64,000 bases of DNA from Rhizobium sp. TH2. GTDB lineage: Bacteria > Pseudomonadota > Alphaproteobacteria > Rhizobiales > Rhizobiaceae. Positions 11,929-30,152 of the stretch are shown piece after piece. Location: the NCBI RefSeq assembly GCF_024707525.1, contig NZ_CP062231.1, positions 2,356,001 to 2,420,000 of the forward strand. The letters run 5' to 3'. The notes beneath the pieces are model-generated. The model had not been told where the DNA came from. It made no database searches and was given only the letters and a program-made list of their open reading frames with translations. Each line of letters starts with the position of its first letter. Positions within the stretch are counted from its first letter, which is position 1. Both the position numbers and the translations under genes were made by a program.

Positions 11929-11944
11929 TTGCACCCGGGTGCAA
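11929..11944. repeat. Cassette box 1, perfect palindrome TTGCACCCGGGTGCAA
   Basis: One of eight related boxes in the island. This copy has two identical TGCAA-type arms around CCCGGG, making a perfect 16-bp palindrome, whereas most copies pair a GAAA arm with a TGCAAAA arm. Confidence 0.6.
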
Positions 11945-11994
11945 AGTTTCGAGGAAAAAATAACCTTAGGTATTCAGGCACTTGTGGGGATCAA

Positions 11995-12069
11995 GGGAAG
12001 GCAACCTAAGTCAAATTATCCAATAAAATCAATAAGAAATTCAACGATGTTGGAACTAGTGTTGGAACC
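11995..12069 (+). repeat. Dispersed repeat, copy A (doubled GTTGGAACC)
   Basis: About 75 bp matching the sequences at 14619-14693 and 17769-17844 in the same orientation. Shared parts are a GGGA/AGGGCAACC start, an AATAAAATCAA block and a tandem GTTGGAAC(C/T) at the right end. The function is unknown. Confidence 0.55.
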
Positions 12070-12192
12070 GCTGTTGCCACGTCGTCATTTATTGAACCGA
12101 GCGCAAAACCACGGGACTACTATCCGGAGAAACAGGCCCTAGCGGGTATCGGTATCCGGGACCGCGCACACGAGAGGCGTGGGCGGAGGGAC

Positions 12193-12846
12193 TTAGACTG
12201 GGAATCTCTTCACTGCGAGTTCGGCGCCCAACGTGCGGGCGACCATGGCTCGGGCGTCGATCGGCGACATCCCTGACGACACAAGTTCGCTAAACCGATC
12301 CCGCATCAGGATATGGTCTTCTGGATGTTTCCGAAGTGCAGACGGCAGCTTCGCGCCGCCACGAAAGGGCTCACTAGTCCCGTCAGCCGTGTCCACCCAT
12401 AGAATATTTGGGTCTGGTATGAAGATGAAGTGTTCGGGGACATCGATTAGCTGCGGCGTTAGGCAACGCCAGAGCCCCTCCCTCTGGACAACTGAGTGGA
12501 GAATGATCCAACCCCAAACGTGGCGGGTCAATCCTTGCGGGTCGCCTGCGGCGTATTGCGCACAGTTCACATGGCAGTTGTAAGGAACCATCCCAATTTT
12601 CAGCAGATGGTCTCTCGGGGGTCGCGTAACCGCCACCCTTGGGAGCGCAAGGACTTCCGTTAAAGCATCCGCCTCCGCCTGCGTAGCTGGGAACGCCATC
12701 TCCTCGACGTTCCGGAGGATAAGCTCGGTCAGGGACTCGCGGTATAGATCCGTAGAAGCTTCTGGATTGTTTCCTAGCGGAGCGTCTTTCAAGTGGATTT
12801 CGCCTGTTTGGTTCGAGTGTCCGAAATCGAAAGGCAGCTTGATCAC
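12193..12846 (-). CDS. Conserved-type hypothetical protein with Cys/His motif
   Basis: About 217 residues, not a family I can name with certainty. The GTG start at 12846 is favoured: GGAAGAAG precedes it and its GTGA overlaps the stop of a small upstream frame. An ATG at 12888 would add 14 low-complexity residues. Conserved-looking points are YNCHVNCAQYA, GWIILHSVV, LWRCLTPQLIDVP and FIFIPDP, a pattern (Cys-x-x-Asn, then Gly-Trp, then His, then TPxxxD/PD) seen in small hypothetical proteins that may have a papain-like fold; that is inference. It lies in the first module of the island. No catalytic role is assigned. Confidence 0.6.
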   Translation of the reverse strand: MIKLPFDFGHSNQTGEIHLKDAPLGNNPEASTDLYRESLTELILRNVEEMAFPATQAEADALTEVLALPRVAVTRPPRDHLLKIGMVPYNCHVNCAQYAAGDPQGLTRHVWGWIILHSVVQREGLWRCLTPQLIDVPEHFIFIPDPNILWVDTADGTSEPFRGGAKLPSALRKHPEDHILMRDRFSELVSSGMSPIDARAMVARTLGAELAVKRFPV

Positions 12847-12986
12847 AGAACTTCTTCCGGGGAAAGCCGGCGAACTCGATCCTGACATCCGGTGCGAATT
12901 ATAGGAGTTTGCGCGCCGTTCTCCACGACCGTGCGAGCCGCTTGAACCTCCTCGATTATGCGTTCGCGTTCCGTCAACTCCAACAA
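12843..12986 (-). CDS. Possible small coupled protein (47 aa)
   Basis: A frame that reads as helical, charged protein (ERERIIEEVQAARTVVENGA) ends TGA exactly over the GTG start of the next gene (GTGA overlap), the arrangement of translationally coupled pairs. The open frame extends to about 13073 without ATG or GTG; a TTG at 12984-12986 gives 47 residues. No strong ribosome site is visible, so the start is uncertain and the gene may be a remnant. Confidence 0.35.
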   Translation of the reverse strand: MLELTERERIIEEVQAARTVVENGAQTPIIRTGCQDRVRRLSPEEVL

Positions 12987-14497: not shown

Positions 14498-14618
14498 CGG
14501 TCACTCTGCTGTAAAACTGGTTGCAATAACTTACAGGTGTCTTCCATCGCTGCGTCAAGCTCGATCCTCGCGCTCGGTCTCCATCGCCCCTATTTAGTGC
14601 CGAGTTGGTGCGGATGAC

Positions 14619-14693
14619 GGGAGGAGAACCCAGTCGAATTTGTCTAATAATATCAACATATAATAAGGCGATGTTGAAAGCAATGTTGAAACC
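14619..14693 (+). repeat. Dispersed repeat, copy B
   Basis: Second copy of the 75-bp sequence, more diverged (GATGTTGAAAGCAATGTTGAAACC at the right end is the doubled motif with changes). It ends 18 bp before the IS3 element. Confidence 0.5.
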
Positions 14694-14743
14694 GGCGCCC
14701 AAGAGCAGACTGAATAGCCCCGAGTTTCGTAGACACCCTCGGG

Positions 14744-15870: not shown

Positions 15871-15993
15871 GGTGCTCTTCTTGCCTCAAAATTAGGAAAG
15901 AAGGCGTCTACAAATCTAGGGGCTATTCAGACCTATTGCTTGTTAGTGCGGGTGTTCGCTGTGCTACATATTACCCGCTAACTGGAGGTCGCG

Positions 15994-17688
15994 ATGTACG
16001 ATGCTGCTTTTTGGTTGCGAATACAACGGTCGGTCCTAGTCGGACAAAAGAGTATGCGGGAGGTGGCTCGGGAGGAAGGTATTTCCCGGAACACAGTCAG
16101 AAAAATTCTAAGGACCGGAAAGCCTCGGCCATATAAGAGGTGTTCCGTCGCGCATACGGTGATGGGTGACCACAATGAATATCTTATGAAGCTGCTCAGC
16201 CTACGTCGTGACGGTGAGCGTCAAAACGTGACTGCCATTTACCATCAGCTGAAAACCCTACGCGGATACGAAGGAAGCTACAGCTCCGTGAGGCGAGCTG
16301 TCCGTTCCATATGTTTGGACGAGACGATCTGGGGTGTTGCCCTTGACCATATCTTAGGCTTGAGGCGAGCGGACGCGATTGCCTTCTTGCGAGAGACAAC
16401 TAACATCCAAAGGCTCCGGGGCAGCGAGGCCTTTCCATCAGACGGGTTCAGGCGGCGTGCTGAGACGCCATTGATCCGGCTTCAGTACGGAAATGACGCG
16501 GGTCGGCGGGCAATTGGATGGTTGCTTGAGGTTCTGAGTTCTCGGAGCGGCGACGAGGAACCTAATGAGCAAATGCGTCAGTTGACCGACCTTGCTCAGA
16601 TCACACAACGAATGCGCACCGGCGACCTCCGCGACCGCAAGAAGGCGCTAGCCGTATTGGCAAAAGTGCAAGGTATACCTGGAGCCGTGACATGCAAATT
16701 CCTTGGCCTGAATAGGCATACTTATCTCGTGTACAACCGCGCCTATGGAGAGGGAGGTGCGGACAATCTGTTCACCAGACAGCGCCGACGCAGTCGAAAA
16801 AGTGAGGATCGAACACTTTGTGAAAATGTCTTTAGCGTGCTCCATGAGCCGCCATCTGCGTACGGGCTTAATAGAACGTCGTGGCGGATGGAGGACTTAG
16901 CGGAGGTCTTGTCAGTGAAAGGTACGCCCGCGTGTTTAGCCGTAATTAGAGAAATCACTAAAAAGGCCGGCTACAAATGGCGAAAGGCAAGAATTGTACT
17001 AACTTCGAGTGATCCAGAATACGCGGTCAAGCTAGCAAAACTTCAGCACATTTTACGCAATCTGAGGCCAGACGAGGCATTTTTTTCGGTTGACGAGTTT
17101 GGGCCATTCGCAGTGAAAACGAAGCCTGGCCGCGTTTTGGCGCCGCCGGGTAAGGCGCCATCCGTGGATCAATGGCAAAAGTCTCGGGGATGCCTGATTT
17201 TGACGGCGGCCCTTGAGTTATCGGAAAATCAGGTCGCACATTTCTACAGCTTGAAAAAGGACACCGACGAGATGATCAAGATGTTGCGCCTTCTCGCCGA
17301 CCAGTATCAGGGGTATTCTCGCATTTTTCTGTCTTGGGATGCTGCATCATGGCACATGTCGAAGAAGCTTTTGGGTACAGTTGAGGCGCATAACCGCGAT
17401 GCCAAATCAGGCCGATGTCCCATGGTCGAGCTAGTTCCACTTCCGGCGGGCGCGCAGTTCTTGAACGTGATAGAGTCGGTCTTCAGCGGAATGGCAAGGG
17501 CCATTATTCATAACAGCAGCTATGAGACCGCTGACGCCGCCGTGCGCGCGATTGACAGGTACTTTGCGGAAAGAAATGCGCATTTTCGCGCCAACCCCAA
17601 ACGAGCTGGCAACAAGATTTGGGGCTTAGAACGCGAGCCTCCCGTATTCTCTCCCTCGCACAATTGCAAAGACCCGGCGTACCGTTGA
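15994..17688 (+). CDS. IS630-family-like DDE transposase
   Basis: 564 residues; GGAGG five bases before ATG. The N-terminus (SMREVAREEGISRNTVRKILR) is an IstA-like HTH, and a long central region contains a second HTH (GAVTCKFLGLNRHTYLVYNR). The C-terminal DDE core shows FSVDEFGPF, IFLSWDAASWHMSK and FLNVIESVFSGMAR for the three acidic residues, as in IS630/Tc1 enzymes. It is longer than typical IS630 transposases (about 350) because of the N-terminal half. No terminal inverted repeats were identified, so element limits are unknown. An imperfect inverted repeat (GTTAG...CGGGT / ACCCGCTAAC) lies just upstream at 15942-15981. Confidence 0.85.
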   Translation: MYDAAFWLRIQRSVLVGQKSMREVAREEGISRNTVRKILRTGKPRPYKRCSVAHTVMGDHNEYLMKLLSLRRDGERQNVTAIYHQLKTLRGYEGSYSSVRRAVRSICLDETIWGVALDHILGLRRADAIAFLRETTNIQRLRGSEAFPSDGFRRRAETPLIRLQYGNDAGRRAIGWLLEVLSSRSGDEEPNEQMRQLTDLAQITQRMRTGDLRDRKKALAVLAKVQGIPGAVTCKFLGLNRHTYLVYNRAYGEGGADNLFTRQRRRSRKSEDRTLCENVFSVLHEPPSAYGLNRTSWRMEDLAEVLSVKGTPACLAVIREITKKAGYKWRKARIVLTSSDPEYAVKLAKLQHILRNLRPDEAFFSVDEFGPFAVKTKPGRVLAPPGKAPSVDQWQKSRGCLILTAALELSENQVAHFYSLKKDTDEMIKMLRLLADQYQGYSRIFLSWDAASWHMSKKLLGTVEAHNRDAKSGRCPMVELVPLPAGAQFLNVIESVFSGMARAIIHNSSYETADAAVRAIDRYFAERNAHFRANPKRAGNKIWGLEREPPVFSPSHNCKDPAYR

Positions 17689-17704
17689 AGGGGCATCTTG
17701 TCGA

Positions 17705-17721
17705 TTTTGCACCCGGGTTCA
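17705..17721 (-). repeat. Cassette box 2 (TTTTGCACCCGGGTTCA)
   Basis: Minus-orientation copy (TGAACCCGGGTGCAAAA), 17 bp after the IS630-like transposase stop. It pairs a TGAA arm with a TGCAAAA arm around CCCGGG. Confidence 0.6.
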
Positions 17722-17768
17722 CAAAAGCACAGCCGCGAGCGTCGCAGTCGCCACGTAAGTGGGCCCGG

Positions 17769-17844
17769 AGGGAGGGCAACCAACACGTTTTTATCTAATA
17801 AAATCAACGTTATTTTTCGCAATGTTGGAACCAATGTTGGAACC
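17769..17844 (+). repeat. Dispersed repeat, copy C (exact tandem ATGTTGGAACC)
   Basis: Third copy of the 75-bp sequence and the most regular one: the right end is an exact tandem of AATGTTGGAACC. Read on the minus strand all three copies give a short peptide-like pattern (GSNIGSNIA, GSNTSSNIV, GFNIAFNIA) near stops, so they could be 3' ends of lost genes. Confidence 0.55.
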
Positions 17845-17865
17845 AAACGCAGGTCACAGCGCGCC

Positions 17866-17884
17866 TTTTGAACCCGGTTGCAAA
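17866..17884 (+). repeat. Cassette box 3 (TTTTGAACCCGGTTGCAAA)
   Basis: Copy with a TTTTGAACC left arm and GGTTGCAAA right arm. It begins the module carrying the HNH gene and its membrane partners. Confidence 0.6.
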
Positions 17885-18186
17885 TCGGACCCCAGTCCGG
17901 GTGGATGATCGCATCAGCCTTCCTCATGCGCATGTGGGAGAGGCTCCCATTATTGATCAGCGCTACGAGCAACAATAAGCAGAGAAAAGGCCTACAAAAC
18001 CCCTTACGGCTCTCTCTGTCTTCTGTTGGCGTGTCCTTGCGGTTGAAATCAAAGCCGCGCATACTTCGGGCTTTCGGGGTGTCATTAGCTATCGGATGGG
18101 ACCGGCCCCTGATCAGGTGCAACTGAGCGCTGATCGTGGATTGGGCTGGTTTAAGCCGAAATGCAAGCAGCTTGGGGGAAGGCTAC

Positions 18187-18464: not shown

Positions 18465-19148
18465 ATGAAGACGAACGCTACTTTCTGGACGAGGTCGCGG
18501 ATTGTCGCTGCCGTCGTTGTTTCCGTTATTGGCATTATGATTTGGCGGCAGAGTGAAGTCAGTAAGCAACGAGCACAAGAGCAGACCCGACAGGATCAAA
18601 TCGCGCTCGATCGTTTTGACCAGATTACGACCGCGAGTGAAGCTTCGGTCCGAGAATTCGAGACAATCACCAATTACTACAACAGCTCGTCCTTTTCTCG
18701 GATTTACAATGATCGAAAGATGGAGCCGATAATCATCAGGCTAGACCGCTATCTCAAAGGCCCGTTTCAGATTTCGAAGCCCATACCGGGCGGTATCCTT
18801 GAAAAGGTTCTGGATAACGATTGTCGGAGTTATTCTTCTGCGTACGAGACTTTGAAGGGTGCGGACCGCGAAGAGAAGCTCGGCAGATATCGCGATCAAT
18901 ACGGCTACCTATATCGCGCATTCGGAAAGCACATGGGCTCCGTTGCCGCCCATGAGGAACGGTGCACCGGATATGTCAAGGCTGCGGAGAACCGATATGC
19001 CGAGAGCCAGAAATCGACCGGCGAAAAACTGGGTGAGCTTTACGGAAAGGTGAGCAACGAAGCGTCGAGCGCCTTAGATGACGCCACCAAGCCGCTTTCA
19101 GATTTCTATGCCGATTTCCAGATAGGCATGGATAGCGCCGAACCCTAG
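18465..19148 (+). CDS. Membrane-anchored hypothetical protein
   Basis: 227 residues; AGGAG precedes the ATG. One N-terminal membrane helix (VAAVVVSVIGIMIWRQ, about residues 14-29) is followed by a long mainly helical soluble part with likely coiled coil (SEVSKQRAQEQTRQDQIALD) and a C-terminal helical region. Topology suggests an inner-membrane anchor; the side on which the bulk lies is not certain. No family recognised. Position between the small tail-anchored protein and the HNH gene suggests a shared system, possibly phage defence. Confidence 0.6.
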   Translation: MKTNATFWTRSRIVAAVVVSVIGIMIWRQSEVSKQRAQEQTRQDQIALDRFDQITTASEASVREFETITNYYNSSSFSRIYNDRKMEPIIIRLDRYLKGPFQISKPIPGGILEKVLDNDCRSYSSAYETLKGADREEKLGRYRDQYGYLYRAFGKHMGSVAAHEERCTGYVKAAENRYAESQKSTGEKLGELYGKVSNEASSALDDATKPLSDFYADFQIGMDSAEP

Positions 19149-19223
19149 AGCAACGCTAAGGTGCTGTTCGTAGGTAAGTGCGCCGTCAGGACAAACGATG
19201 AAGCAAGGTAGGGTTAAGGGCGC

Positions 19224-20360
19224 ATGAGTGGAGAGAGAAAGCAGCCTTCAACTGAAGTTAGACAGGCGATCTGGGAAGCTTGGGATAAGAAGTCGGCCTA
19301 TACGGGCGAGCCGGTGGCGTGGCCAAATTTGCATGTCGACCACGTCATTCCTGTCAAGAAGCCAAAACTGCTGGCGGACCTTCAAAGCAAGAGGCTAGCC
19401 CCAGCTGACTTCGATATTAATGGCTTCGAAAACCTGCTTCCCTCCGCCAATTTCCAAAACCAAGGAAAATCCGCTAAGCAGATGGAGGAGAATGCCTTGG
19501 TCTATTATCTTGAGCTGGCCCGGCAGAAAAAGCCAGAAATCCAGAGGCGTCTTGCAGCGCGATACAGGTCGAACGCTGAGCTTAAAGCCTACCTCGATCT
19601 GAAGGCCGCATCCGAGAAGAATGACGTTTCGCTTGAGGAAATGCTTACCGTTTTCGCTCATCGAGCCGAGGGCGCCGTCACCCTTCGTATCACTCCAGCA
19701 ATCGAAGGGGCAAATCTCGCTACCGCCAATTCATCTGTGGCCGCCACACTGATGGACAGGCCCTTTGCCTTGGGTGGAGGAACGGTGACCGAGGTCATCG
19801 TGCATTCATCGAACGGCCATTCGCTAACTTGCACTACGAGCAACGAATTCATTCGGGCTCAACAACTCGGCTACTTCGCCTTAACCCAGACGGATATCAA
19901 GATTGCCAGCATGGCCAGTGAGACAACTGAGGCGTTGCGGGCCATCCGAGACTCCACGTTCGCTGATGAGTCCGAGTTGCGTGAGCCGATCGTGAAGCTA
20001 AGACATTTGGACCGTTGGGCGGCAGAATGGGTGGCCGGCGGCCTCGTTGATCATGATGACTTGGAAAAAATCGCTGGACTTAAGACTATCTCGGATGTGG
20101 TCGACGCAGGCCTCTGTAAGGTCGAAAGTCTCGAAGATCACGAGGTCAGTTTCATTGTTCACCACGGTCTCGATGTGACGCTTCGGGAGTTGATGAGAGC
20201 CGATCTCGACGGAGACCGGTGGGAAGAAATATTGATATTCAATTATATGTCGGCCGCTCGAAACGGAGGGACCCTCGGCGGAGGACAGGCGTTTATGGCA
20301 AAGATTGCAGAGGACGGGCTGCTGCATATGCAAGCTTATCCGCCAGAAAAGACGGAGTGA
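19224..20360 (+). CDS. HNH endonuclease domain protein
   Basis: 378 residues; AAGGGCGC precedes ATG. The HNH core lies at about residues 25-85: YTGEPVAWPNLHVDHVIPVK gives the His-Asp-His pair, and NGFENLLPSANFQNQGKSA gives the Asn and the conserved FENLxP pattern. The usual zinc Cys pairs are missing. The remaining 290 residues carry no recognised domain, but contain a repeated alpha/beta character (TVTEVIVHSSNGHSLTC). It is likely a metal-dependent DNase. It follows two membrane-anchored genes and faces a third membrane protein, so a membrane-associated defence nuclease is plausible but unproven. Confidence 0.75.
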   Translation: MSGERKQPSTEVRQAIWEAWDKKSAYTGEPVAWPNLHVDHVIPVKKPKLLADLQSKRLAPADFDINGFENLLPSANFQNQGKSAKQMEENALVYYLELARQKKPEIQRRLAARYRSNAELKAYLDLKAASEKNDVSLEEMLTVFAHRAEGAVTLRITPAIEGANLATANSSVAATLMDRPFALGGGTVTEVIVHSSNGHSLTCTTSNEFIRAQQLGYFALTQTDIKIASMASETTEALRAIRDSTFADESELREPIVKLRHLDRWAAEWVAGGLVDHDDLEKIAGLKTISDVVDAGLCKVESLEDHEVSFIVHHGLDVTLRELMRADLDGDRWEEILIFNYMSAARNGGTLGGGQAFMAKIAEDGLLHMQAYPPEKTE

Positions 20361-20413
20361 CCAGTGTTGGTGGAAATAATTTGCTGGTCGGTCGGCGCGA
20401 ACAGCCTGGGCGA

Positions 20414-21361
20414 TCAGGGACCAAACCATCCGATGACAGTAGATTTTCCCATGTCATAGATCGCGTTCAACACAACAGTCGAAAGCACCAAGCCGGCAAC
20501 GGTACGATGTAAGTACGCACGCCAGCGGCTCGTCTTGTAGAATTCCATCGGTGGGAATAGCCAGCGCACGTACTGGAACACGAAACGTATGAACAGTAAC
20601 GATAAAAGTAGCGCGTATATTCCTATGATGACGTTAATGAAAGTTGTCTGCGTACGAAGCCAGTCACCGAAAAATCCCGAATTCTGGTGGTAGAGCCAGA
20701 TCAATGTCGGTAGAAAGACCAAGTAAACGAGATAGTCGTAGGTGCCAGAGCCGTGTATTGCTGGTCTGTACGACTTCTTCCTTCTAAGAAAGTCTTGGAT
20801 ACGAGCTTCCGTCGAGATGACCCAATCTTCATCGCGCCCATAGATATTTATCACGCTACGGTTCGCGGTGGCGTTTGACGGCACGGTCTGCCAATCGATC
20901 TTCAATGATGGCTTCTCAAAGCTTAAAAATGCGTCCACAACATTTAAGGGGCGCGTGTTTATCGCGCGCTGTGCGTACGTGGCGTTCGAAACAAAGAACC
21001 CCTTCAGATCGTCGGGAAACTCCAGGTCTCTTGTATTAGGCATGCCTCGCCCCTGCGTGATATCGTCTGACGCCGCAGTGTACTCGTATTCGATTGCGAC
21101 GAATTCTTCCACCCGCGCTCTTGCCAATTCTGGAGTATCAAAAGAGGCAATGTCGAGGGCGTTGTACTCGATGACTCGGGCCCTATCATTGGCTTTCGAC
21201 AGAATTTGAGTGAACTCATAGAGGTCGTCGGCGGATAAAACCACATTGTGAGGAAAGATGTTGCGGCGATACTGTGCGACACGCTGGGGAGGGGTTAGCG
21301 CCTCTTGAACTGGCGGATCAATTGCTGCAAGCGTAGGAACAAGTTCTTTCGATTTCGCCAC
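20414..21361 (-). CDS. Hypothetical membrane protein, three C-terminal helices
   Basis: About 315 residues. A GTG start with GGAG nine bases upstream is preferred; an ATG six codons earlier lacks a site. The first 205 residues are soluble with no recognised domain. Three hydrophobic segments follow (YLVYLVFLPTLIWLYH, FINVIIGIYALLLSLLFIRFV, TVAGLVLSTVVLNAIYDM). It is convergent with the HNH gene (about 50 bp apart). The pattern of a soluble domain fused to membrane helices beside a nuclease recalls two-part effector systems, but I find no specific family. Confidence 0.6.
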   Translation of the reverse strand: MAKSKELVPTLAAIDPPVQEALTPPQRVAQYRRNIFPHNVVLSADDLYEFTQILSKANDRARVIEYNALDIASFDTPELARARVEEFVAIEYEYTAASDDITQGRGMPNTRDLEFPDDLKGFFVSNATYAQRAINTRPLNVVDAFLSFEKPSLKIDWQTVPSNATANRSVINIYGRDEDWVISTEARIQDFLRRKKSYRPAIHGSGTYDYLVYLVFLPTLIWLYHQNSGFFGDWLRTQTTFINVIIGIYALLLSLLFIRFVFQYVRWLFPPMEFYKTSRWRAYLHRTVAGLVLSTVVLNAIYDMGKSTVIGWFGP

Positions 21362-21848
21362 GTTAAATCTCCGCCACAAATGCTGTGAGAGTAGTCAGAT
21401 TGGGCGCACCTAGCTAGGGCAGTTGAGCTGAGCAGCGGAAAAATCGAGTCAGGGGCAAATTAGCGGCATGAGCCCGTCGCTTTTTTTGAAACCGGGTGCA
21501 AAATTTCGTATCTCTTTGTCGCTACAATCCCGCTCCGTGTACTTGCGCCATCCCCTCGTTCCCCGTTTCAAGCAAAGTCCTTAGTGAACGGCCTTGCACT
21601 TGCGGTTCAGTCATCGGAAGTTCCATTGCAGGGCTTAGCATTGATCCATAGCCAAAGCGCTCGGCTTGACGGAGTAGAGTGGCCACTGAAGCTATAACAC
21701 CGATCCGGCGCAGCGTAACGATAGTGCTTTTCCGTCAGGTGCGCTTGAATGGAAAATTGGTAGCGCGCTGCCCGCAAAGATTGCGCCATTGATTTACGGA
21801 TTTTCAACCTCGGGCCTTCAAAACTCTCAAGACATTGAGGGCAAGAGT
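21362..21848. other. Non-coding gap with cassette box 4
   Basis: Nearly 490 bp between divergent genes. It holds cassette box 4 and otherwise nothing I can name; short minus-strand open frames here have no start signals. Confidence 0.4.
21488..21507 (+). repeat. Cassette box 4 (GAAACCGGGTGCAAAATTTC)
   Basis: Consensus form of the island box: GAAA and TTTC at the ends, CCGGG near the centre, preceded by seven T. It separates the HNH module from the MrcB_N-HNH gene. Confidence 0.65.
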
Positions 21849-22838
21849 ATGAATTTAAGAGACGTTCTTCACGCGATCAGTACCACATACCACTCCATCG
21901 CCATCAGAGATATAGCAGCCACTAAATCTCGACCGAAGGAGCCGGGAAACTACGTTGGGCATCAACTGGCATCGCTCATCCGCAACGAAGCAGCAGAAGT
22001 ACTCTATGACTGTGTCGCCTTAGGCCAGTCGAATTTCACGACAACAAAGGGCAGTCCTGGCCAAGATGATTGGGCATATGTTCCGTGGCTTGCGGTCTAT
22101 GATCCCTTAGCATCCGCCGGTGCAATGCACGGATATTACGTCGTGTATCTGTTCGATGCACCGCGCAAAGCGGTGCACCTGAGCCTCAATCAAGGCACGT
22201 ATTCGGTGCAACAAGAATTCAAGTTCAGGGCGACCGAAGTGCTCTTGGATCGAGCGGCACTAATGCGACGCAAGATTTCCGATGTTTCTACCGGGTTTGA
22301 TACGACTCGAATAACCTTCGGGCACAACAGCTCTCTCGCAACAAACTACGCGGCCGGGCATATTGTGGGACGAACCTATGAAGGGGAAAACCTTCCCGGC
22401 CTCGGTGAAATCGAGGCGGATCTTCAGCATTTGATGAAGGTGTATCGAACTCTTATTTTTCGAGGGGGGCTCGACTTCGAAGACCAAAAACCGGACCCGG
22501 CGGGTTCAAAAAAAACCCTTACCGAGGTTCGTGCCTATCGCCTACATAAGCGAATTGAACGAAATCCAAAAGCATCAAAGGAGGCGAAGAAAGTACACGG
22601 CTACGTTTGCAAATGTTGCGAATTCGATTTTGCTGAAGAATATGGCGATCGGGGCAAACACTATATCGAAGCTCACCATATCAAACCACTTTCTTCTCTG
22701 ATTGAAGGGGCTCCCGTTGAATATGACATCAAGAACGACTTCACCGTTCTATGTTCAAATTGTCATAGAATGGTTCATCGTCATAACGACTTGATTGATG
22801 TGGTCACCTTGAAGAAGAAGATGAAACGACGGGTGTGA
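21849..22838 (+). CDS. MrcB_N (DUF3578)-like plus HNH endonuclease fusion
   Basis: 329 residues; GAGGG eight bases before ATG. The first 180 residues match the pattern of the MrcB N-terminal/DUF3578 domain (AYVPWLAVYDP, GYYVVYLFDAPRKAVHLSLNQGT, then a helical end), a module known from modification-dependent restriction proteins. The C-terminal HNH (about 255-325) is intact with zinc Cys pairs: CKCCEFDF, HYIEAHHIKPLS and DFTVLCSNCHRMVHR. This points to a restriction enzyme recognising modified or particular DNA, acting alone as no methylase is adjacent. It stands between two cassette boxes as a single-gene module. Confidence 0.8.
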   Translation: MNLRDVLHAISTTYHSIAIRDIAATKSRPKEPGNYVGHQLASLIRNEAAEVLYDCVALGQSNFTTTKGSPGQDDWAYVPWLAVYDPLASAGAMHGYYVVYLFDAPRKAVHLSLNQGTYSVQQEFKFRATEVLLDRAALMRRKISDVSTGFDTTRITFGHNSSLATNYAAGHIVGRTYEGENLPGLGEIEADLQHLMKVYRTLIFRGGLDFEDQKPDPAGSKKTLTEVRAYRLHKRIERNPKASKEAKKVHGYVCKCCEFDFAEEYGDRGKHYIEAHHIKPLSSLIEGAPVEYDIKNDFTVLCSNCHRMVHRHNDLIDVVTLKKKMKRRV

Positions 22839-23387
22839 ACGTCCCTCGACGCAAGAGCGGGCTCATCGCCAGATCGGAGCGCCGCTCGGCAGAGCGGAAG
22901 CGATGTATCCGAGGAGCATTTGGCGCCGAGCGAGCGTTCACGCCGCAATGATTTCCGGAGACGCTTGCCCACCCGCCTCTTTTTGAAACCGGGTGCAAAA
23001 ATTTCAGACCTGCCGTCGATGTGCGTATGACGGCTACTCGCAGCCCACACCATCGCTATCAGCGTCTAAGCGATAGCCCGCTACGTGTAATCATCGCCTC
23101 ACAGCCCCAAATCCCGGTTCAAACAATGCCCGCTTTTGACCCGATCCGATGTAGCTGACCCCGTTGCTGATATCGAGCTAATCGATCGAAATGCGGCGCA
23201 CTCAGCTTCCTCCGATCAATCTCAAACTGGGTTGCCGACATCCTGCACCCCGCAGGCATCGAACGTCGAGCATACGGATGAAGTTAGCCTAGCTAGGCAC
23301 AAACCGTGGCCCGCGCTTGCAGAGGCAATATCGGCAATGTATGGTTGCCGATCGGGTCTCTCAACCAAATAGGATCTAGACAACGCG
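22839..23387. other. Non-coding gap with cassette box 5
   Basis: About 550 bp. It contains cassette box 5, an inverted GTGAACG/CGTTCAC pair spanning about 22838-22952, and a weaker partial box (CCCGGTTCAAAC) near 23115. No gene is supported. Confidence 0.4.
22985..23005 (+). repeat. Cassette box 5
   Basis: GAAACCGGGTGCAAAAATTTC-type copy, one A longer than box 4, also preceded by a T run. It separates the MrcB_N-HNH gene from the PD-(D/E)XK module. Confidence 0.65.
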
Positions 23388-25619
23388 ATGATTGCACTGC
23401 CTGACGGCAATTCTGCTGAGAAAGTTTTGGCAGAACTCAGGGGTACCTGCCTAGAAATTCGGAGGCTGGTCCGAACTCAGTCGCCAAAAGCCCTCATAGG
23501 TTATCTTTGGGCGCAAGTGCTGATGTCGCTTCTTGGCAAATCGTCATCAAGTCCGAAGAAGGCGCAATTGCCAAATGTGTCCACCGATGAGAACACGATA
23601 ATGTTCGCCATGGAATACATCCATGCGACCGTTGTGGTAGACGGCCTCGCCGAAACTGAAAATAAGGTCGACGAGGCAATCGCCAAGCAGATCGTTGACC
23701 TATCTGAAAAAGCAAAGGGCCTGTGCTTTCAATATGCGATGGTCGACACGGCGTTAGACGCTTCTGCTTTACCTACGGTCGATAAAAAGTTGGCCTTTCA
23801 GATACTTACTAACTGGATACTAATAAGGGGTCGTAGGTTTCAGGTTTTGGAACAGGAGTTTTTTTCCTATGTGTTAGCTCCGCATAACGATCAAATCCAG
23901 TCTACTTACGGCATTTCGTCGTTTGAGCTCGCAAATGAAATTCAAAAGGTAGCGGATGCCATTCGTGCCGGTTTCGATAAGGCCCAGACTAGAATGATGC
24001 AAATATTTCTTGAGATAAGGTCGGGGATCGGTAAAAACGGCATCGACATGCAGGCGGCGATCGAAAGTGCGAACAAGAAAAAACCCGAATTAGCCGGGGA
24101 GTTAAAAGCAATATTCGACGACCTATTTCTGGGTGGTTTGTTCAATGTAACCAAACATAGCTCAATTCCGCAAAAACTGCTTGAGGATCTCTCGTTTCAA
24201 CCGGGCGAGAATAGCGATTTTGACAAAGGGTCCAAAATTGGCGGGACGCCATTCATGACCCTGCCCGCTCGGGTAAAGCCATTCATTAAGCTTGGGGCAG
24301 ATTACTATTGCACAGATCCCAACTTTGTTCGTGACGCCTCCTACCGCGCCATCCAGCGAGCGCTGGTTACTCGGAAGCCCACATATCGCGAAGAATGGAA
24401 CAAGCGGCAGAAACGAATGTCCGAGGACGCATTTGCCGACATTATGGCAGCGCACCTTAAGGGTGCCCGTGTGTTCAAGGATGTTTATTATCCCATTGGA
24501 AAGAACCAATGGGCCGAGACTGACTGCGTGATACTTATAAACGATGTATTGATTAATGTGGAAGCCAAGGCGGGTGCGGAAGCCTTAAGTGCGCCTGCCG
24601 AAAACCTAGCACGCCACGTTAAACAGATCGAAGAACTCATTGAGAGCGCTTATCGGCAGACAAAAAGATTTCTCGATTATGTCCATCAGAAGCCTGAGGC
24701 GCCGATTTATCGACGGCTGCCTGACGGAAAACATGAAGAAATTGCTCGAATAAGACACTCGGAACTTCGACACGTATTTCCTATTGGGCTTACTGTTGAA
24801 GCGTTCACTCCATTTTCTTCCTCTATTAAGGAGAATGCATCAGTAGTCGCGATTGCAGATCGTTACGACTTCATTTCAATTTCAATGGATGATCTCTTGG
24901 TTGTGCGGCGGATATTGAGCGGTACGGGAGAGTTCTTGCACTACCTCGCTGTCCGACAGGGGCTCGCAGGTATCAAAAACGCGATGCTTTTCGATGAAAT
25001 GGATCATTTAGGAGCATACATCTCACAGAACCGCGCCGATCTCCGCATCAAGGAAATGCTCAGTGAACATGAAGCGGACTACCTTTGGCTTGACGGAATG
25101 GATCAAGACATCATCGGTCCTTACTTTTCGGATGCCGATTGGCCTAACGCCAAAAAGCCAAAGCAAGATTATCCGCCGATTGTCCTTGAGCTTCTAGAGG
25201 CTCTTGAACTGGCGGCTGCACCGCTTTGGCTGGCGGCGGACGAATTCATCAGGGATTTGGATGACGTTGGCAGACGCCAAATACAAGATAGTTTCGAGCG
25301 TGCTTTGCCTAACCTGAGAGCGAAGCCTTTTACGTATTTCGCAACATCCGGTGACGCGGGTGCGGTTTTCGGCGTGATAAGGGAAGACGCCCGCAACGCC
25401 CGTCGGGACTTGATATTTGAAACCGAGGCTCTCGCAATGGCACTCAGGGAAGATCGTGTCCGTCTGATCGAGATTGGAGTCAACTCTAGGGGAAAGATTA
25501 CTAGCGCGCACATGTCGTTCGTAAAGCGGCCTTCGATGCTTCGATCCGACTTTGCGTCGCTGTCGGCTGAGGCGGTACGTCTCGAAGGGAAATTTATACG
25601 AGCCGAAACGCGCAAGTAG
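23388..25619 (+). CDS. Large protein with PD-(D/E)XK (NERD-like) nuclease core
   Basis: 743 residues. The first 330 residues are helical and unrecognised. A nuclease core follows: GARVFKDVYYPIGKNQWAETDCVIL, with Asp near 379, then LINVEAKAG with Glu392 and Lys394, and a helix with Gln/Lys (HVKQIEELIESAYRQTKRFL). This is the D-(x12)-E-x-K order of NERD and related PD-(D/E)XK nucleases. The C-terminal 280 residues are mixed alpha/beta with no named domain. The start has AGGATC upstream. It lies 47 bp before an unknown gene on the same strand, and the pair is bounded by cassette boxes 5 and 6. A defence nuclease role is inferred. Confidence 0.7.
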   Translation: MIALPDGNSAEKVLAELRGTCLEIRRLVRTQSPKALIGYLWAQVLMSLLGKSSSSPKKAQLPNVSTDENTIMFAMEYIHATVVVDGLAETENKVDEAIAKQIVDLSEKAKGLCFQYAMVDTALDASALPTVDKKLAFQILTNWILIRGRRFQVLEQEFFSYVLAPHNDQIQSTYGISSFELANEIQKVADAIRAGFDKAQTRMMQIFLEIRSGIGKNGIDMQAAIESANKKKPELAGELKAIFDDLFLGGLFNVTKHSSIPQKLLEDLSFQPGENSDFDKGSKIGGTPFMTLPARVKPFIKLGADYYCTDPNFVRDASYRAIQRALVTRKPTYREEWNKRQKRMSEDAFADIMAAHLKGARVFKDVYYPIGKNQWAETDCVILINDVLINVEAKAGAEALSAPAENLARHVKQIEELIESAYRQTKRFLDYVHQKPEAPIYRRLPDGKHEEIARIRHSELRHVFPIGLTVEAFTPFSSSIKENASVVAIADRYDFISISMDDLLVVRRILSGTGEFLHYLAVRQGLAGIKNAMLFDEMDHLGAYISQNRADLRIKEMLSEHEADYLWLDGMDQDIIGPYFSDADWPNAKKPKQDYPPIVLELLEALELAAAPLWLAADEFIRDLDDVGRRQIQDSFERALPNLRAKPFTYFATSGDAGAVFGVIREDARNARRDLIFETEALAMALREDRVRLIEIGVNSRGKITSAHMSFVKRPSMLRSDFASLSAEAVRLEGKFIRAETRK

Positions 25620-25666
25620 CTGAACCTATATTGAGACTCAAACACTAGTTCGCTACGTCATCACAT

Positions 25667-26725
25667 ATGACCTTAATTCAAGAACTCATCACCATTCGGA
25701 AGTCAGACACCAAACGCTTCGATACAGAGGTGTGGGATTTTATGGATTTGGTTGACTCCCAGCAACACGGTGGTAGTCGATTGCATCAGATGACCCCAAA
25801 TGATCTCGTAAAGAGGCTGGCACAGATCGAGCTTAATATCCAATACTTGGATGACGGCGTAAGTGACTATCAAGATCGTGATCACAACGGAGGGTGGGGC
25901 TCTCCCTGGTGGTGGTACCGTGCACGACATTGGACGCTATTAGAGTTCCAACGCCGCCATATGGTTCCTGAACAGAGTCGTGAACTCGCGCCAGCACCAA
26001 CGCTTCTTCCGCTATTTCGAGGCGCCTACGCAGGCGGAACCGAGTTGCTCGTTAGGGTCAGCCGCAGACAGTGGCTGCTAGATGCGCTGACGCTGGGTAA
26101 ATTGCGATTTTCTCCCGCTGCTGCATATCAAAACAGTGCCCTAAATGAAGCGAGAGCCGATGACGAGATGAGTAAGGGCTACATCCGACCCGGCAACGCG
26201 CTTCGGATCACCACGACGGATGGCAACTCGATAAATCCGATTGGGGACGTGAGGTTTGCAACAGAAAGGCGCGTTGAATTTTCAGGTTCTCTTGTCGACC
26301 GGCCTTACTGGATGATGTCCTTCAGCAGCGATCTGGACCCCCGAATTTTTGACGATCTTCCAAGCAATGACCCTATCGAAGACGCCGCCCTGGTCATCTT
26401 TGACGTTGCAGCTTTTGTCCATAGAGCGGTACCACTGCTTTTCCGAGCAGCACCAGGAACTACGTTCGAAACGGTTCGAAATATTTATTTCGATCCGTAC
26501 AACCCACCCGCAGAAAGGATGTCCGCAGTCCGTCATAAATTAATGCGATATGCCTATCAGCGAGAGGTTCGCTTGGTGCTGGACCCTGGTAGCGGTCCTC
26601 CTATCGCCGCCGGTGGTGTGCTGGAAGTGGAGATTGGTACACTTGAAGATGTCGCTGGTGTCTACGATCGGCTCGGCAATAAGATCGCGGGCTCGGGACC
26701 TCCAAGTTTCTTAGCGAACGTTTAG
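25667..26725 (+). CDS. Hypothetical protein, possibly DUF2971-like
   Basis: 352 residues, no clear ribosome site before the ATG. The middle part has a pattern resembling DUF2971-type proteins: KLRFSPAAAYQNSALNEARADDE, then YWMMSFSSDLDPRIFDDL, then a region with YAYQREVRLVLDPG. I give this resemblance low weight. It follows the large nuclease gene by 47 bp on the same strand, so both are likely one transcript and one system. Nothing in it looks catalytic beyond conserved Arg/Glu residues. Confidence 0.6.
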   Translation: MTLIQELITIRKSDTKRFDTEVWDFMDLVDSQQHGGSRLHQMTPNDLVKRLAQIELNIQYLDDGVSDYQDRDHNGGWGSPWWWYRARHWTLLEFQRRHMVPEQSRELAPAPTLLPLFRGAYAGGTELLVRVSRRQWLLDALTLGKLRFSPAAAYQNSALNEARADDEMSKGYIRPGNALRITTTDGNSINPIGDVRFATERRVEFSGSLVDRPYWMMSFSSDLDPRIFDDLPSNDPIEDAALVIFDVAAFVHRAVPLLFRAAPGTTFETVRNIYFDPYNPPAERMSAVRHKLMRYAYQREVRLVLDPGSGPPIAAGGVLEVEIGTLEDVAGVYDRLGNKIAGSGPPSFLANV

Positions 26726-26897
26726 TCGTAACGATGCAGTGGCATTTTAGCAGATCGCGAGCGCAAGCGGTGCGGCCAATATAAGAGCCGCCAGTTCGCT
26801 ATGCTTTCAGACACACAAGATTAGCGTGGAGGCTAAATGGGGGATCGAATTTACCAATCGCGGCCACTCTCGGTCTCCTGCAATTTCTTTCAAAAAT

Positions 26898-26917
26898 GAA
26901 ACCGGGTTCAAATTTTC
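26898..26917 (+). repeat. Cassette box 6 (GAAACCGGGTTCAAATTTTC), contains resolvase stop codon
   Basis: Here both arms are of the TGAA type, so the copy is nearly palindromic (TGAAACCGGGTTCA). The TGA stop of the minus-strand resolvase gene lies inside it. Confidence 0.65.
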
Positions 26918-27519
26918 CTTTTCGCGATTTTTGCAACAGTTGCACGAGATGCGCCAGTTGCATTTTGTATTTGCGTCCATGATATCCCTGCTTTCAGCAT
27001 GGAAGCGATACCTTCGTTCCGCTTTACGTCTTCGATCCGGCCTCGATACCGTCCCTCCTCCTTGGCCTTGGCTTGACCCTGAGCCTGTCGGCGTCGGCGG
27101 TCCTCATAATCCTTCCGCGCGACAGCAGCGAGGACGTCCAGCATCATACCATTTATCGCCGAGAACATGCGCCCGGTGAAATCATCTGTGGAGACGGCGG
27201 TGAGCATCCAAGAGGTCGGAAGGTCCATCGCGACGACGCGGACCTGTCGGGCGTCCAATTGGACGCGGAGCTTCTGCCAGTCGGCGGCGGTAAGGCGTGA
27301 CAGGCGGTCCACTTGCTCGATCAATAGCACGTCGCCGGGGCGCGCGTCGGAAAGCAGTCGGAAGAGTTCGGGACGGGAGAGTGTCGATCCGCTTTCATTC
27401 TCAGCATAGGCTGCGGCGATGGTTAGCCCACGTTCTGTGGCGAATGCCTCAAGCTCGGCACGGGCTCGGCTTGCATCCTGTTCATTCGTAGAAGCCCGAA
27501 GGTAGAGTCTTGCAAGCAT
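26908..27519 (-). CDS. Serine recombinase (resolvase/invertase family)
   Basis: 203 residues. The catalytic Ser is near residue 10 in YLRASTNEQDA; the core continues with SRPELFRLLSDARPGDVLLIEQVDRLSRL and an E-helix region. The C-terminal HTH (SMLKAGISWTQIQNATGASRATVAKIAKRK) is complete, so the protein is full length. Members resolve plasmid or transposon cointegrates or invert segments. A set of TGAACCAG repeats about 75-125 bp upstream is a possible res site. The stop codon lies in a cassette box, so it may act on these boxes or may itself have travelled as a cassette. Confidence 0.9.
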   Translation of the reverse strand: MLARLYLRASTNEQDASRARAELEAFATERGLTIAAAYAENESGSTLSRPELFRLLSDARPGDVLLIEQVDRLSRLTAADWQKLRVQLDARQVRVVAMDLPTSWMLTAVSTDDFTGRMFSAINGMMLDVLAAVARKDYEDRRRRQAQGQAKAKEEGRYRGRIEDVKRNEGIASMLKAGISWTQIQNATGASRATVAKIAKRKI

Positions 27520-27591
27520 TCGAAAATTCCCCGAAAGTTTAATTAGGATGGTCTACATATAAGTGGTTTACTTTGAATGGTCAAACACCAT

Positions 27592-27644
27592 TTATTGAAC
27601 CAGCGCAGGTCTGGTTCATTGGAAGCATACTCATAATGAACCAG
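27592..27644. repeat. Candidate res site, CTGGTTCATT/AATGAACCAG
   Basis: A perfect 10-bp inverted repeat (27611-27620 and 27635-27644) plus a third TTGAACCAG at about 27594-27603, located upstream of the resolvase start. Resolvases of this family often bind repeated sub-sites upstream of their own gene. Confidence 0.4.
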
Positions 27645-28075
27645 CCCATGCAGTGTGATTTCATGATGTCAGGCTATTCACCCTTTCTAATTATCATTAA
27701 TACCCAGTCACCGACGAACCGGCATTTGGTGCCGACATGGGCGAGCAGTGATATCGCCGAATTTCTCCCGCTGTGACGCGTGAAATCGAAAACAGTGGCA
27801 ACCGCTAACCCCTTGCCAAACCTAGCGGAATGATCCCTAGCGGCGGTCGAGCAAGAGCTTTTAAACGTTAGGGGAAATGCGGGAATAATCGGGGCATTTC
27901 TCTGGCGTATAACGGGAAAATTCTCTCATGGCGTAACGGGAAGAACGCAATGCTATTGGGAAGCTCTCGTTGTCCGGTGATAATAGGACCGCAAAGCCGC
28001 CAAGCGCTCACCACGGGTCAACTCGGGACGCTTCAATCGATAGCAAACGCGGACTGCTCCTCCGCATCAACATCC

Positions 28076-28096
28076 GAAATTTTTGCACCCGGTTTC
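28076..28096 (-). repeat. Cassette box 7
   Basis: Minus-orientation consensus copy (GAAACCGGGTGCAAAAATTTC), identical to box 5 but inverted relative to it. Confidence 0.65.
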
Positions 28097-28190
28097 ACTA
28101 TTTCTGTACAGGGCTCAAATCATCGGGAAAACGCCCTTCCCGATACAATCTGCCAAATTTAAGCTCTCGCCCCGTCTGAGAGAAATCCCC

Positions 28191-28316
28191 ATGACTAAAC
28201 GCAATCTGCCAGCGGCTCTTCTCAGCAACGCCTGGCACGAACATTTTGATACTACGGCAGCGTTTCTGATGAAATTTTTGGAAACCAGTTTCGCGCATCA
28301 TAGTGTAAATCGATAA
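28191..28316 (+). CDS. Possible small protein (41 aa)
   Basis: A 41-residue frame with GAGAGAAA upstream of the ATG (MTKRNLPAALLSNAWHEHFD). No family recognised. It precedes the replication gene by 300 bp. It may be a real small regulatory protein or chance. Confidence 0.3.
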   Translation: MTKRNLPAALLSNAWHEHFDTTAAFLMKFLETSFAHHSVNR

Positions 28317-28616
28317 CATGTATTCAGCACACCAGGCCTATTAAAATCCATGATCGAACGCTCTCACGTTATCCTACAACAAGTTTCAAAATATACTTTT
28401 ATGTTGCTTTCTGTTCACGCGAAATAGTTATCGACACTCTTTTCTCCAACACCGTTATGCTGCTCATAGTATTGCTCGGAGCGCATTTTTTTGTTAGTGT
28501 GTACTATCGCGTTTTCAAGACGTGATCACGACGACGGTTGTGTTGCAGAGTGACGCCGATGCCCGACTTTTGCCCTTTGAACGGGCATCGGCGCATCGGG
28601 TATAAAAGGGTTTCAA
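28317..28616. promoter_or_regulatory. Upstream region of the replication gene with a 12-bp hairpin
   Basis: AT-rich 300 bp. A perfect 12-bp stem (CGCCGATGCCCG at 28554-28565 with CGGGCATCGGCG at 28582-28593, 16-nt loop) lies between a possible -10 (TACTAT near 28502) and the start of the replication gene. It could be an operator, an origin hairpin or a leader stem. Confidence 0.4.
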
Positions 28617-30152
28617 ATGGAAAACGTACTACGGCCCAATTTCGGCCGACTGACTTCGCACGCCCTTATTCATGAGATGAGCGAGCAAGACCCGCTGGGC
28701 GGGCTCGCCCGCGCTTGGTATGCCGACAAGGGAAATCCCAAGTGTCAGATGGATTTATCGCGCTTTTTTGATCGCCAACTTCGAGATTACTTCGATCTCA
28801 ACGTTTACTCTATGCTTCGCCACCTCTTCGACCAGACAATTCAAATGGGCCGAGACAGTTGGGGGTTTACCTACATGAGGATAGCCAAAGGCGACACCAT
28901 GACTAACGGCGTCGGCTGCGACGAACGAACAGCTAAACGCCTCGTGGCGCAACTGGCAGAGATCGGAGTTATCATCAAGGAACCCAATCCCAAGGGTGTT
29001 CAGATAACATTCAATCTGAACTGGAGACCCCAACCCGGTCAGCGGCGTGCGTATGAGGACCGAAAAAAGGCACCGACAAGGAAAATGGGTGACACGCGTG
29101 TCACCCGTCCAGTGACAGGGATGTCACCCCCGGCAGTGACAGGGATGTCACCCATAAGAGAAGAAGATGTACGAGAAGAAGAAATAAGAGGAGAAGCATT
29201 TTACTCGGCTCCCGCTTCGCAGAACCGAGTGATCGGTTCTTCCGATTTTAATTTTATTGAGGAAGTGGAGCCTGCCTCACCCTCGGCGCAAGAACCTCCA
29301 GCTCCGCAGAGTTCCTCGTCGCCCCAAGTGCCAACCGGCACCCCCACTAAGGAACTGCGCAAGACCCATGATCGGCCCACCCAGGCACAGCAAAAAGTGA
29401 AACCGGGTGCAATTGAGGAAACGTTCCGCGCTGCATTCGATGATGCCTTCCGGGACTATCCCGGCGCAATCTGGGTAGGCTGGACCGGGAAAGAACGTGC
29501 CATAGTCAACAACGCCCTGATCAAAAAATGGGAGAGAAAACCCGAAGATTTGCACGAGTTCTTGCGCTGGGCGGTCACCAACTGGACACAGATCATGTCC
29601 TATCGCTTCTCCTGGGTAAAGCATGACCGCCCGGAAATCCCGACGCTTTCGTTCCTGATTTCAATGCTGGCGCACTTCCGCAAAGCTTATGCTTCCGACA
29701 TGACGGAAGGGTGGTTACGCTCGATCAAGGATCACGAAAAGGCTGAGTTTGCCCGTCTAACCCTCAAGGGTGGCTTGACCCAGGAAGAGGCCCGCATGAA
29801 GATCGCCGAAAAACGCGCCGTGAGCCGGATGTGGGAGAAGAACAATGCGGTCGAATTGGCAGCATCCCAAAAATATCACTCAGCACTGCGTATGCAGGAG
29901 GACGCGAAACGATACGGAGCCTTGCCGATACATCCCAAGTCGCAGCGCGCGATGGAAATACGGCGCGAGGCAAGTCAGAGGCGCGAGCAGGAATATCGAG
30001 AGGAGGTCGAGGCAGAACTTAGGGAGAAGGACGCCTTGCGCGCCAAGTATGATCTTCAAGAAAGAAACATAGCTGAGCCATCTTCCTCTTCTTTGATTGA
30101 AGGCGTTTACGATTTTGGGAAGGTCCCGAGGTGGGAGGATATCCATGGGTAA
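28617..30152 (+). CDS. Phage/ICE-type replication initiation-like HTH protein
   Basis: 511 residues; AAGGG precedes ATG. The N-terminal 140 residues hold a winged helix-turn-helix region (MLRHLFDQTIQMGRDSWGFT, then CDERTAKRLVAQLAEIGVI) followed by GVQITFNLNW. The next part is the low-complexity linker typical of replisome organiser proteins (TRVTRPVTGMSPPAVTGMSP). The C-terminal 270 residues are helical and basic with likely coiled coil. Cassette box 8 lies inside the coding part (reads VKPGAI), which suggests the box was captured or the C-terminal region was joined through it. It probably starts replication of the island after excision; the family is inferred. Confidence 0.6.
   Translation: MENVLRPNFGRLTSHALIHEMSEQDPLGGLARAWYADKGNPKCQMDLSRFFDRQLRDYFDLNVYSMLRHLFDQTIQMGRDSWGFTYMRIAKGDTMTNGVGCDERTAKRLVAQLAEIGVIIKEPNPKGVQITFNLNWRPQPGQRRAYEDRKKAPTRKMGDTRVTRPVTGMSPPAVTGMSPIREEDVREEEIRGEAFYSAPASQNRVIGSSDFNFIEEVEPASPSAQEPPAPQSSSSPQVPTGTPTKELRKTHDRPTQAQQKVKPGAIEETFRAAFDDAFRDYPGAIWVGWTGKERAIVNNALIKKWERKPEDLHEFLRWAVTNWTQIMSYRFSWVKHDRPEIPTLSFLISMLAHFRKAYASDMTEGWLRSIKDHEKAEFARLTLKGGLTQEEARMKIAEKRAVSRMWEKNNAVELAASQKYHSALRMQEDAKRYGALPIHPKSQRAMEIRREASQRREQEYREEVEAELREKDALRAKYDLQERNIAEPSSSSLIEGVYDFGKVPRWEDIHG
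29399..29414 (+). repeat. Cassette box 8 inside the replication gene
   Basis: GAAACCGGGTGCAATT within the coding sequence, with both CCGGG and arms retained. It is located near the junction of the linker and the C-terminal domain. Confidence 0.5.

Follow-up and report, generated by a model that had tools for sequence, protein, structure and literature searches.

We analyzed a 64,000-nucleotide stretch of the Rhizobium sp. TH2 chromosome (contig NZ_CP062231.1, positions 2,356,001 to 2,420,000; here called the window and numbered from its first nucleotide), which covers part of a genomic island where a short near-palindromic sequence, the box, recurs mostly between gene modules. The insert that carries the boxes is approximately 46 kb long and ends at a tRNA-Asn gene (31970..32044, minus strand), which marks the right end of the island and adjoins a gene for a tyrosine integrase with Phage_integrase and DUF6538 domains (30518..31798, minus strand). 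Also present is rep (28617..30152, plus strand), whose product, the proposed reader of the box, is homologous to gp055 of Rhizobium phage L338C, a replication initiator that is O-like and resembles helicase loaders. Three congeneric genomes (G003, G004, and G005) are collinear with the TH2 chromosome up to window coordinate about -17,000. The interval from about -14,560 to 31,960 has no match in the same-locus stretches of these three and of a fourth congener (G001, for which only the tRNA side of the locus was compared), a search confined to those stretches. The distance from tRNA-Asn to tRNA-Cys is less than ~1 kb in the congeners, compared with 46 kb in TH2.

The window holds eight boxes with the consensus TGMAMC-CG-GKTKCA, one at each of the positions listed in a first-pass annotation made from the sequence alone. 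The 14-bp core TGMAMCCGGKTKCA matches exactly eight places in the window, starting at 11930, 17708, 17869, 21487, 22984, 26897, 28084, and 29398, and none in each of 100 dinucleotide shuffles. The literal 20-mer given in that annotation matches exactly at 21488 alone and at five places with up to three mismatches, and the two orientations it described carry little meaning in a box that is nearly palindromic. Box location was judged against likely genes, namely those with family matches or of good length, and purely mechanical open reading frames (ORFs) that span boxes, such as 17520-18122 on the minus strand and 11716-12009, were assumed not to be real. By this measure six boxes are intergenic, one lies over a stop codon, and one lies inside a gene, in agreement with the earlier count of seven out of eight in gaps or at gene ends. 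Box 1 (11927..11946) and box 3 (17866..17885) are intergenic; the core of box 2 (17705..17724) begins 20 bp past the stop of an IS630-like transposase gene on its left (15994..17688, plus strand); and box 4 (21484..21503) and box 5 (22981..23000) occupy the intergenic spaces to the left and right of a gene encoding MrcB_N and HNH domains. Box 6 (26894..26913) lies between two convergent gene ends and overlaps the stop codon of a serine recombinase gene, box 7 (28081..28100) is 520 bp upstream of rep, and box 8 (29395..29414) is inside rep, where it encodes KPGAI, with the same codons used in R. setariae. The ten sites of the TH2 island are built from the half-sites TGCACC (8), TGAAAC (6), TGAACC (5), and TGCAAC (1), and the center is CG in all ten. 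A perfect site of the phage type described below, with a 1-bp spacer (TGCAACAGTTGCA, 26932..26944), lies 35 bp from box 6, within the serine recombinase gene. The array is irregular and the boxes lack T tracts, which bears out the earlier exclusion of CRISPR and terminators, and an Rfam scan at gathering thresholds returned tRNA as its sole match, with nothing at the boxes.

Across the 6.4-Mb TH2 genome, the 16-mer TGMAMCCSGKKKCAMA, which does not match the box at 29398, occurs at 10 distinct places. Nine are in the island, seven of them in the window and two upstream of it (G000:C1 2352511 and 2353231), and one isolated copy lies at 2911974, ~0.5 Mb away; the statement that no copies exist outside the island was therefore nearly right. 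A search of the genus found a box match in four of nine genomes. One of these, R. setariae (G002, taken as strain KVB221), has eight boxes near a tRNA-Ala gene and an integrase gene, seven of them with a CG center. The first-pass annotation had also raised the prospect of a box equally frequent in core genomes; among 394 Rhizobiaceae genomes, 35 carry the strict 18-bp form, in one to a few copies each. Inspection of 20 stretches from 16 of these 35 genomes revealed clusters in two (G352 and G199). The perfect palindrome TGCAACCGGTTGCA was present once or twice per stretch in nine of the 14 noncluster genomes; the remaining five (G330, G093, G231, G283, and G122) carry imperfect, island-like forms. 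The G352 cluster comprises 10 sites in 20 kb (9 by weight matrix) with seven kinds of central dinucleotide. Boxes are concentrated in mobile DNA. As a separate observation, box islands of two genera (G112:C1 1137296-1169376 and G352:C14 54111-61258) share a chromosomal locus, at which a gene and the integrase are oppositely oriented relative to the common left flank.

The boxes track the rep gene. Profile searches detected rep in 5 of the 394 genomes of the family and in one more, G744, in an order-level search of 397, and all six bacterial genomes with rep have box clusters: 10 sites in TH2, 8 in R. setariae, 10 in G352, 6 in G199, 3 in G744, and 4 in G112 after one of five pattern matches was discarded as chance. 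In G199, the six sites lie on contig C40 and rep on another contig, C11. G744 was examined as a test of the prediction, and three sites were observed in the 20 kb at rep, compared with no two-bp-spacer site in three control stretches of 20 kb (60 kb). Homologs of Rep comprise gp055 of the phages L338C, P11VFA, and RHph_I4 and a protein of plasmid p7; Rep of the window aligns with gp055 at 29% over 398 amino acids. The gp055 protein matches the PHROGs category "replication initiation O-like" (E value of 4.6e-7), and one member of that alignment is labeled a DnaD-like helicase loader. Rep/gp055 was the sole protein common to TH2 and the phages (BLAST E value of ≤1e-3, ORFs of at least 35 amino acids), in a comparison that took in only 40-90 kb of RHph_I4 and only 4.3 kb of G744. 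The p7 protein had no match in a set of phages at 1e-5, and a search of solved structures likewise found no match. Gene order in the phages is gp055-gp056-DnaB-polymerase, and R. setariae retains homologs of rep, gp056, and DnaB; a DnaB homolog was not found in the TH2 island by ORF comparison. In 9 of 13 elements, the rep gene itself contains a site (P of 0.001 to 0.03), whose position varies; two of the nine (G774 and G199) have weaker forms.

Sites related to the boxes, with the form TGCAAC-NN-GTTGCA and half-sites that are inverted copies of each other, number 52 to 60 per element in the 109-kb Rhizobium phages L338C and RHph_I4 and in p7. The last (NZ_CP071625.1; L097, L099, and L100) is a circular 109-kb plasmid of Rhizobium bangladeshense, which we class as a phage-plasmid because it bears capsid, tail, and replication genes. 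L338C has 52 relaxed sites (47 of them perfect) plus 12 perfect sites with a 1-bp spacer, p7 has 60 (41 perfect) plus 2, and RHph_I4 has 52 (45 perfect) plus 7; spacers of 0, 3, or 4 bp yielded no sites in L338C. The 1-bp-spacer form (TGCAACNGTTGCA) often sits in large gaps of L338C and represents separate sites, not a rereading of the 2-bp ones. Eleven kinds of central dinucleotide occur in L338C, and the centers vary in p7 too. Although 90% of the L338C genome is annotated as coding, 35 of its 52 sites are intergenic (P = 1.5e-23), as are 34 of the 60 in p7; some phage sites lie inside structural genes. Sites whose start falls in the interval from 3 bp upstream to 10 bp downstream of a stop codon make up 15 of 52 in L338C and 19 of 60 in p7, compared with ~9% of random intergenic positions. 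The spacing is more even than chance, with a coefficient of variation (CV) of 0.66 in L338C and 0.575 in p7 versus 0.93 to 1.1 in gene-aware simulations, and a CV of 0.74 in RHph_I4 (P = 0.015 versus uniform placement). Adding the 1-bp sites makes it more even in L338C (CV, 0.56) and RHph_I4 (0.62) and slightly less even in p7 (0.62). P11VFA is 99.95% identical to L338C over the longest segment and therefore adds no independent evidence. The box family is thus common to integrase-bearing islands of Rhizobiales, to 109-kb Rhizobium phages, and to a phage-plasmid. It was also noted that p7 is listed as an ordinary nonmobilizable plasmid though it is a phage-plasmid of the gp055 type.

The association with rep was followed in 34 records of an IMG/VR scan, drawn from those behind 80 loci among the matches listed; the sample was nonrandom, with multihit and long contigs taken first. 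By recordwide density, 12 records were dense (0.23 to 0.5 site per kb, L338C included, two of them contigs of 7 to 8 kb with only 2 sites) and 22 were sparse (1 to 4 sites). With the seed L338C left out, rep was present in 4 of 11 dense and 0 of 22 sparse records (Fisher P = 0.008); among records of at least 79 kb, it was present in 4 of 5 dense and 0 of 5 sparse ones (P = 0.048). Sites are evenly spaced in such records too (G774, CV of 0.69, P = 0.005; G772, CV of 0.53, P = 0.0006, with 27 of 28 sites used). A direct search of viral contigs for rep returned nothing with query A1 and only L338C itself with gp055, and a wider rep profile added no further viral records with rep. A search for DnaB in five of the seven rep-less dense records, run without a positive control, found none, and the records may be fragments.

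We compared L338C with RHph_I4, which share 40 aligned segments of at least 200 bp at 66 to 85% identity. Segment ends, that is, breaks in synteny, fall at 17 of 38 box-bearing gene junctions versus 23 of 142 others (P = 0.0007, 1-bp-spacer sites not being treated as boxes), and at 15 of 34 versus 5 of 38 when the comparison is restricted to gaps of at least 60 bp (P = 0.004). Four segments start within one base of a box. The pair L338C/P11VFA, in which one of six segment ends is near a box, is too alike to be informative. Sites of the box family mark points at which two related phages differ in their gene modules. An old question about mosaic phages, namely how their module borders are set, thereby becomes directly testable, with borders that carry a defined and apparently protein-linked site.

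We propose, at roughly even confidence, that the boxes are dispersed near-palindromic binding sites, with the half-site TGMAMC and a short center, for the element-encoded O-like initiator Rep, and that modules are exchanged at these sites. Rep would be the protein that reads the box because, on grounds of parsimony, it is the sole shared protein found, because it belongs to an O-like family, and because a site lies inside its gene in most of the elements. Rep may bind each box as a dimer, in the manner of a single lambda iteron, and the neighborhood of rep, with a box upstream and often another inside the gene, would be the origin. Elsewhere on the element, the dispersed copies most likely capture Rep and may thereby limit copy number by titration, act as stoperator-like silencers between modules, or both. 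With the same conserved sequence at module borders, homologous or illegitimate recombination there could swap modules, and islands would look like cassette arrays because of such swapping. A bolder form of the proposal is tentative, and we regard it as possible but not probable: a lineage of phage-plasmids, together with related chromosomal islands, would use an O-like initiator with sites every 2 to 3 kb throughout the element, mostly at gene boundaries, and a single pair of protein and site would control copy number, silence or insulate modules, and provide the borders for swapping restriction and defense modules.

Several observations weigh against the binding of Rep to the boxes and the exchange of modules there. 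The link between Rep and the box is seen as co-occurrence only. Taken alone, Rep of the window has a weak match to phrog_8102 (replication initiation protein; E value of 0.007), and it owes its O-like label to gp055. No rep could be detected in G773 (82 kb, 37 sites); a DnaB search of this record, run without a positive control, was also negative, and the record may be a fragment. G001 has one box and no rep, G005, a genome outside the 394, has four box-like sites and no rep in the 60 kb searched, and five rep-less genomes carry one or two imperfect boxes each. Classical O iterons cluster at one origin, and an initiator with single, genome-wide sites and 1- or 2-bp spacers would act unusually. 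Many L338C boxes lie directly upstream of a sigma70-like promoter, which points to transcription, and the junction test concerns one phage pair, in which a conserved box could itself anchor the end of an alignment. Apart from these points, the four sites of G005 (C22, at 72998, 77295, 119339, and 123636) form two mirror pairs, which may reflect a large inverted duplication or an assembly artifact.

The promoter association is among the features that would fit a repressor of a prophage or satellite, either Rep or an unrecognized protein, that acts at gene-boundary boxes to block stray transcription, as in mycobacteriophage L5. The 52 to 60 dispersed, mostly intergenic sites of L338C and p7 and their frequent start at stop codons agree with it, and L5 and Bxb1 are described, in the passages cited, as having 24 and 34 stoperators, respectively, primarily intergenic (PMC3029335). 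Nevertheless, we consider stoperator-like silencing rather unlikely: the L5 sites lack symmetry, follow the direction of transcription, and no longer repress when reversed, according to the portion of the source cited (PMC9283540), whereas the boxes are palindromic. Moreover, ORF comparison found no repressor gene common to the phages and TH2, box 6 lies between convergent gene ends, and the L338C promoters show, by eye, another recurring motif, AAAGGATCGGTTCC, possibly the operator for immunity. A ParB-type protein could alternatively use the boxes as centromere-like sites for partition; the dispersed sop sites of phage N15 are a precedent, the palindromes are scattered over a phage that resembles a plasmid, and genes annotated as ParB-like occur in p7, L338C, and RHph_I4. 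However, these genes have no match among the island ORFs compared, partition is superfluous for an integrated island, and 52 to 60 sites are far above the number in known centromeres, which makes this explanation improbable. Very improbable is an identity of the boxes with operators of a LacI-family regulator, the same as the perfect palindromes of many Rhizobiaceae chromosomes. At four of seven loci inspected, a LacI-type gene is found no more than 700 bp from the perfect palindrome TGCAACCGGTTGCA (the family name being our presumption from the helix-turn-helix motif), but the genomes with perfect palindromes hold one to a few copies, whereas the 10 copies of the island are built mostly from other half-sites (TGCAAC accounts for 1 of 20). 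The scattered perfect palindromes are probably an unrelated operator, in several cases beside a LacI-type regulator; a LacI operator accounts for several of them and not for the island boxes.

The first-pass annotation had read the layout as site-specific cassette insertion. Boxes do lie between modules, they flank restriction systems in other islands (R. setariae and G352), and the breaks in module order between L338C and RHph_I4 fall preferentially at box-bearing junctions; the nearly constant CG center within TH2 (10 of 10) and R. setariae (7 of 8) would, taken alone, fit a crossover. What found no support is a dedicated pdif- or integron-like system, to which we assign a low probability. 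A single genome can hold many different central dinucleotides (11 kinds in L338C and seven in G352), and 1-bp spacers exist (12 perfect sites in L338C), and neither a varying center nor a varying spacer is expected of a crossover site; the phage sites are regularly spaced and also lie within structural genes, and ORF comparison found no recombinase common to all elements. A dedicated cassette recombinase is not supported, and by present evidence this is not a new cassette recombination system. The small serine recombinase of the island (Resolvase, PF00239; 26908..27519, minus strand), the sole candidate enzyme adjacent to a box, was considered as the enzyme of a hix/Mpi-like crossover site, an idea made attractive by a box that overlaps the recombinase stop in TH2, directly follows it in R. 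setariae, and comes ~25 to 30 bp after it in G199. This candidate was rejected: 31 of 32 relatives have neither the 14-bp core nor a 20-bp match with up to two mismatches in the 6.5 to 20.6 kb of DNA examined per locus, beyond which more distant boxes would escape. Only the R. setariae locus (L029, on the G002 contig) has the core, and two others (L032 and L040) have one 3-mismatch 20-bp match each. The serine recombinase is probably cargo and not the box enzyme. By eye, many of its relatives (L029-L060; compare window 27520-27620) have in common AT-rich repeats immediately 5' of the recombinase gene; these repeats contain TGAACC-like half-sites and are probably the recombinase's own res or operator site.

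The boxes are a dispersed-site system shared with phage-plasmids, and we recognized no description of them in the literature searched (open-license PMC text). In its layout it resembles the stoperators of Cluster A mycobacteriophages (L5 and Bxb1), in which tens of copies of one short motif are scattered, mainly over small gaps between genes, each phage type having a variant of its own, and which the passages cited describe as transcription-silencing sites (PMC9283540, PMC6550527, and PMC3029335). Unlike stoperators, the boxes are palindromic with a free 1- or 2-bp center, are also found in integrated islands, and are tied to an O-like initiator rather than to an immunity repressor. With lambda O and its origin iterons, the system has in common an O-like initiator gene near a helicase gene (in the phages and R. 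setariae) and a site within the initiator gene in 9 of 13 elements; the lambda origin lies in gene O. Lambda iterons are tightly clustered at one origin, whereas boxes are single over the whole element, with nothing tighter than a loose grouping near rep in G352. An O-like initiator beside a DnaB-type helicase is found for gp055 of L338C and extends to the window only through the homology of Rep to gp055. As in pdif modules and integrons, modules are flanked by short inverted-repeat sites; unlike in those systems, the family lacks a constant crossover core and no recombinase is shared. Among satellites that have an initiator and an iteron of their own, the nearest parallel is PLE of Vibrio cholerae, a chromosomal island whose RepA, of DnaD-like structure, binds a semipalindromic repeat, according to the part of the source cited (PMC7145576), comparable to the binding proposed here for Rep and the box. 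That source, in the same part, places the PLE iteron in one noncoding region, attributes to PLE a large serine recombinase, and describes no dispersed boxes (PMC7145576). The short conserved sequences at module borders of mosaic phages, proposed in the passage cited to promote recombination (PMC3029335), are similar in position; the boxes differ from them in forming one common motif genome-wide with an apparent, putative protein-binding role.

The cargo between the boxes had been described as independent defense-type units, a description that the MrcB_N-HNH gene between boxes 4 and 5 (21789..22838, plus strand), which is type IV restriction-like, upholds and that the other modules sustain less well. 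The module between boxes 3 and 4 (18465..21379, no strand assigned) has three genes without a Pfam match, one of them with a PHROGs HNH match, and the module between boxes 5 and 6 (23388..26725, plus strand) has two genes of unknown family, the first of which (23388-25619) has a subthreshold NERD match alone. In other islands, a type III restriction-modification system lies between boxes in R. setariae, a type I system lies at boxes in G352 (the methylase found by search, the S and R subunits read by eye), and cellulose-synthesis genes lie beside boxes in G199. The cargo of box islands is often restriction and not always defense. No virion genes were found among the island proteins scanned, a scan that covered part of the island ORFs, and the integrase and rep are both present; we take the island to be, probably, either a phage-satellite-like element or a decayed phage-plasmid, with restriction functions among its cargo. 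Together, rep and TGMAMC-N2-GKTKCA provide a sequence handle for Rhizobiales islands that are related to phage-plasmids and bear such cargo. A three-gene unit between boxes in L076 (4175-8408), encoding an AAA ATPase, an HATPase, and a response regulator with TCAD9, is a candidate defense module.

Several further features were recorded. In L338C (L094/L095; e.g., at 3919, 61232, and 73292), a promoter-like unit, TTGACAAAGGATCGGTTCC...TTAGATT, starts ~7 to 14 bp past many boxes, and an inverted repeat in the spacer of this unit may serve the phage as its own operator. A 54-nt repeat occurs in the TH2 island at 12016-12069, 14640-14693, and 17791-17844, in copies 70 to 76% alike that each end in two GTTGGAACC-like units; a similar pair, GGTTCCAC, directly follows the recombinase gene in L032. 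Finally, the island has two epoxide-hydrolase-like paralogs (7713-9029 and 10358-11638), 1.3 kb apart, whose DNA is 71% identical over 300 nt.

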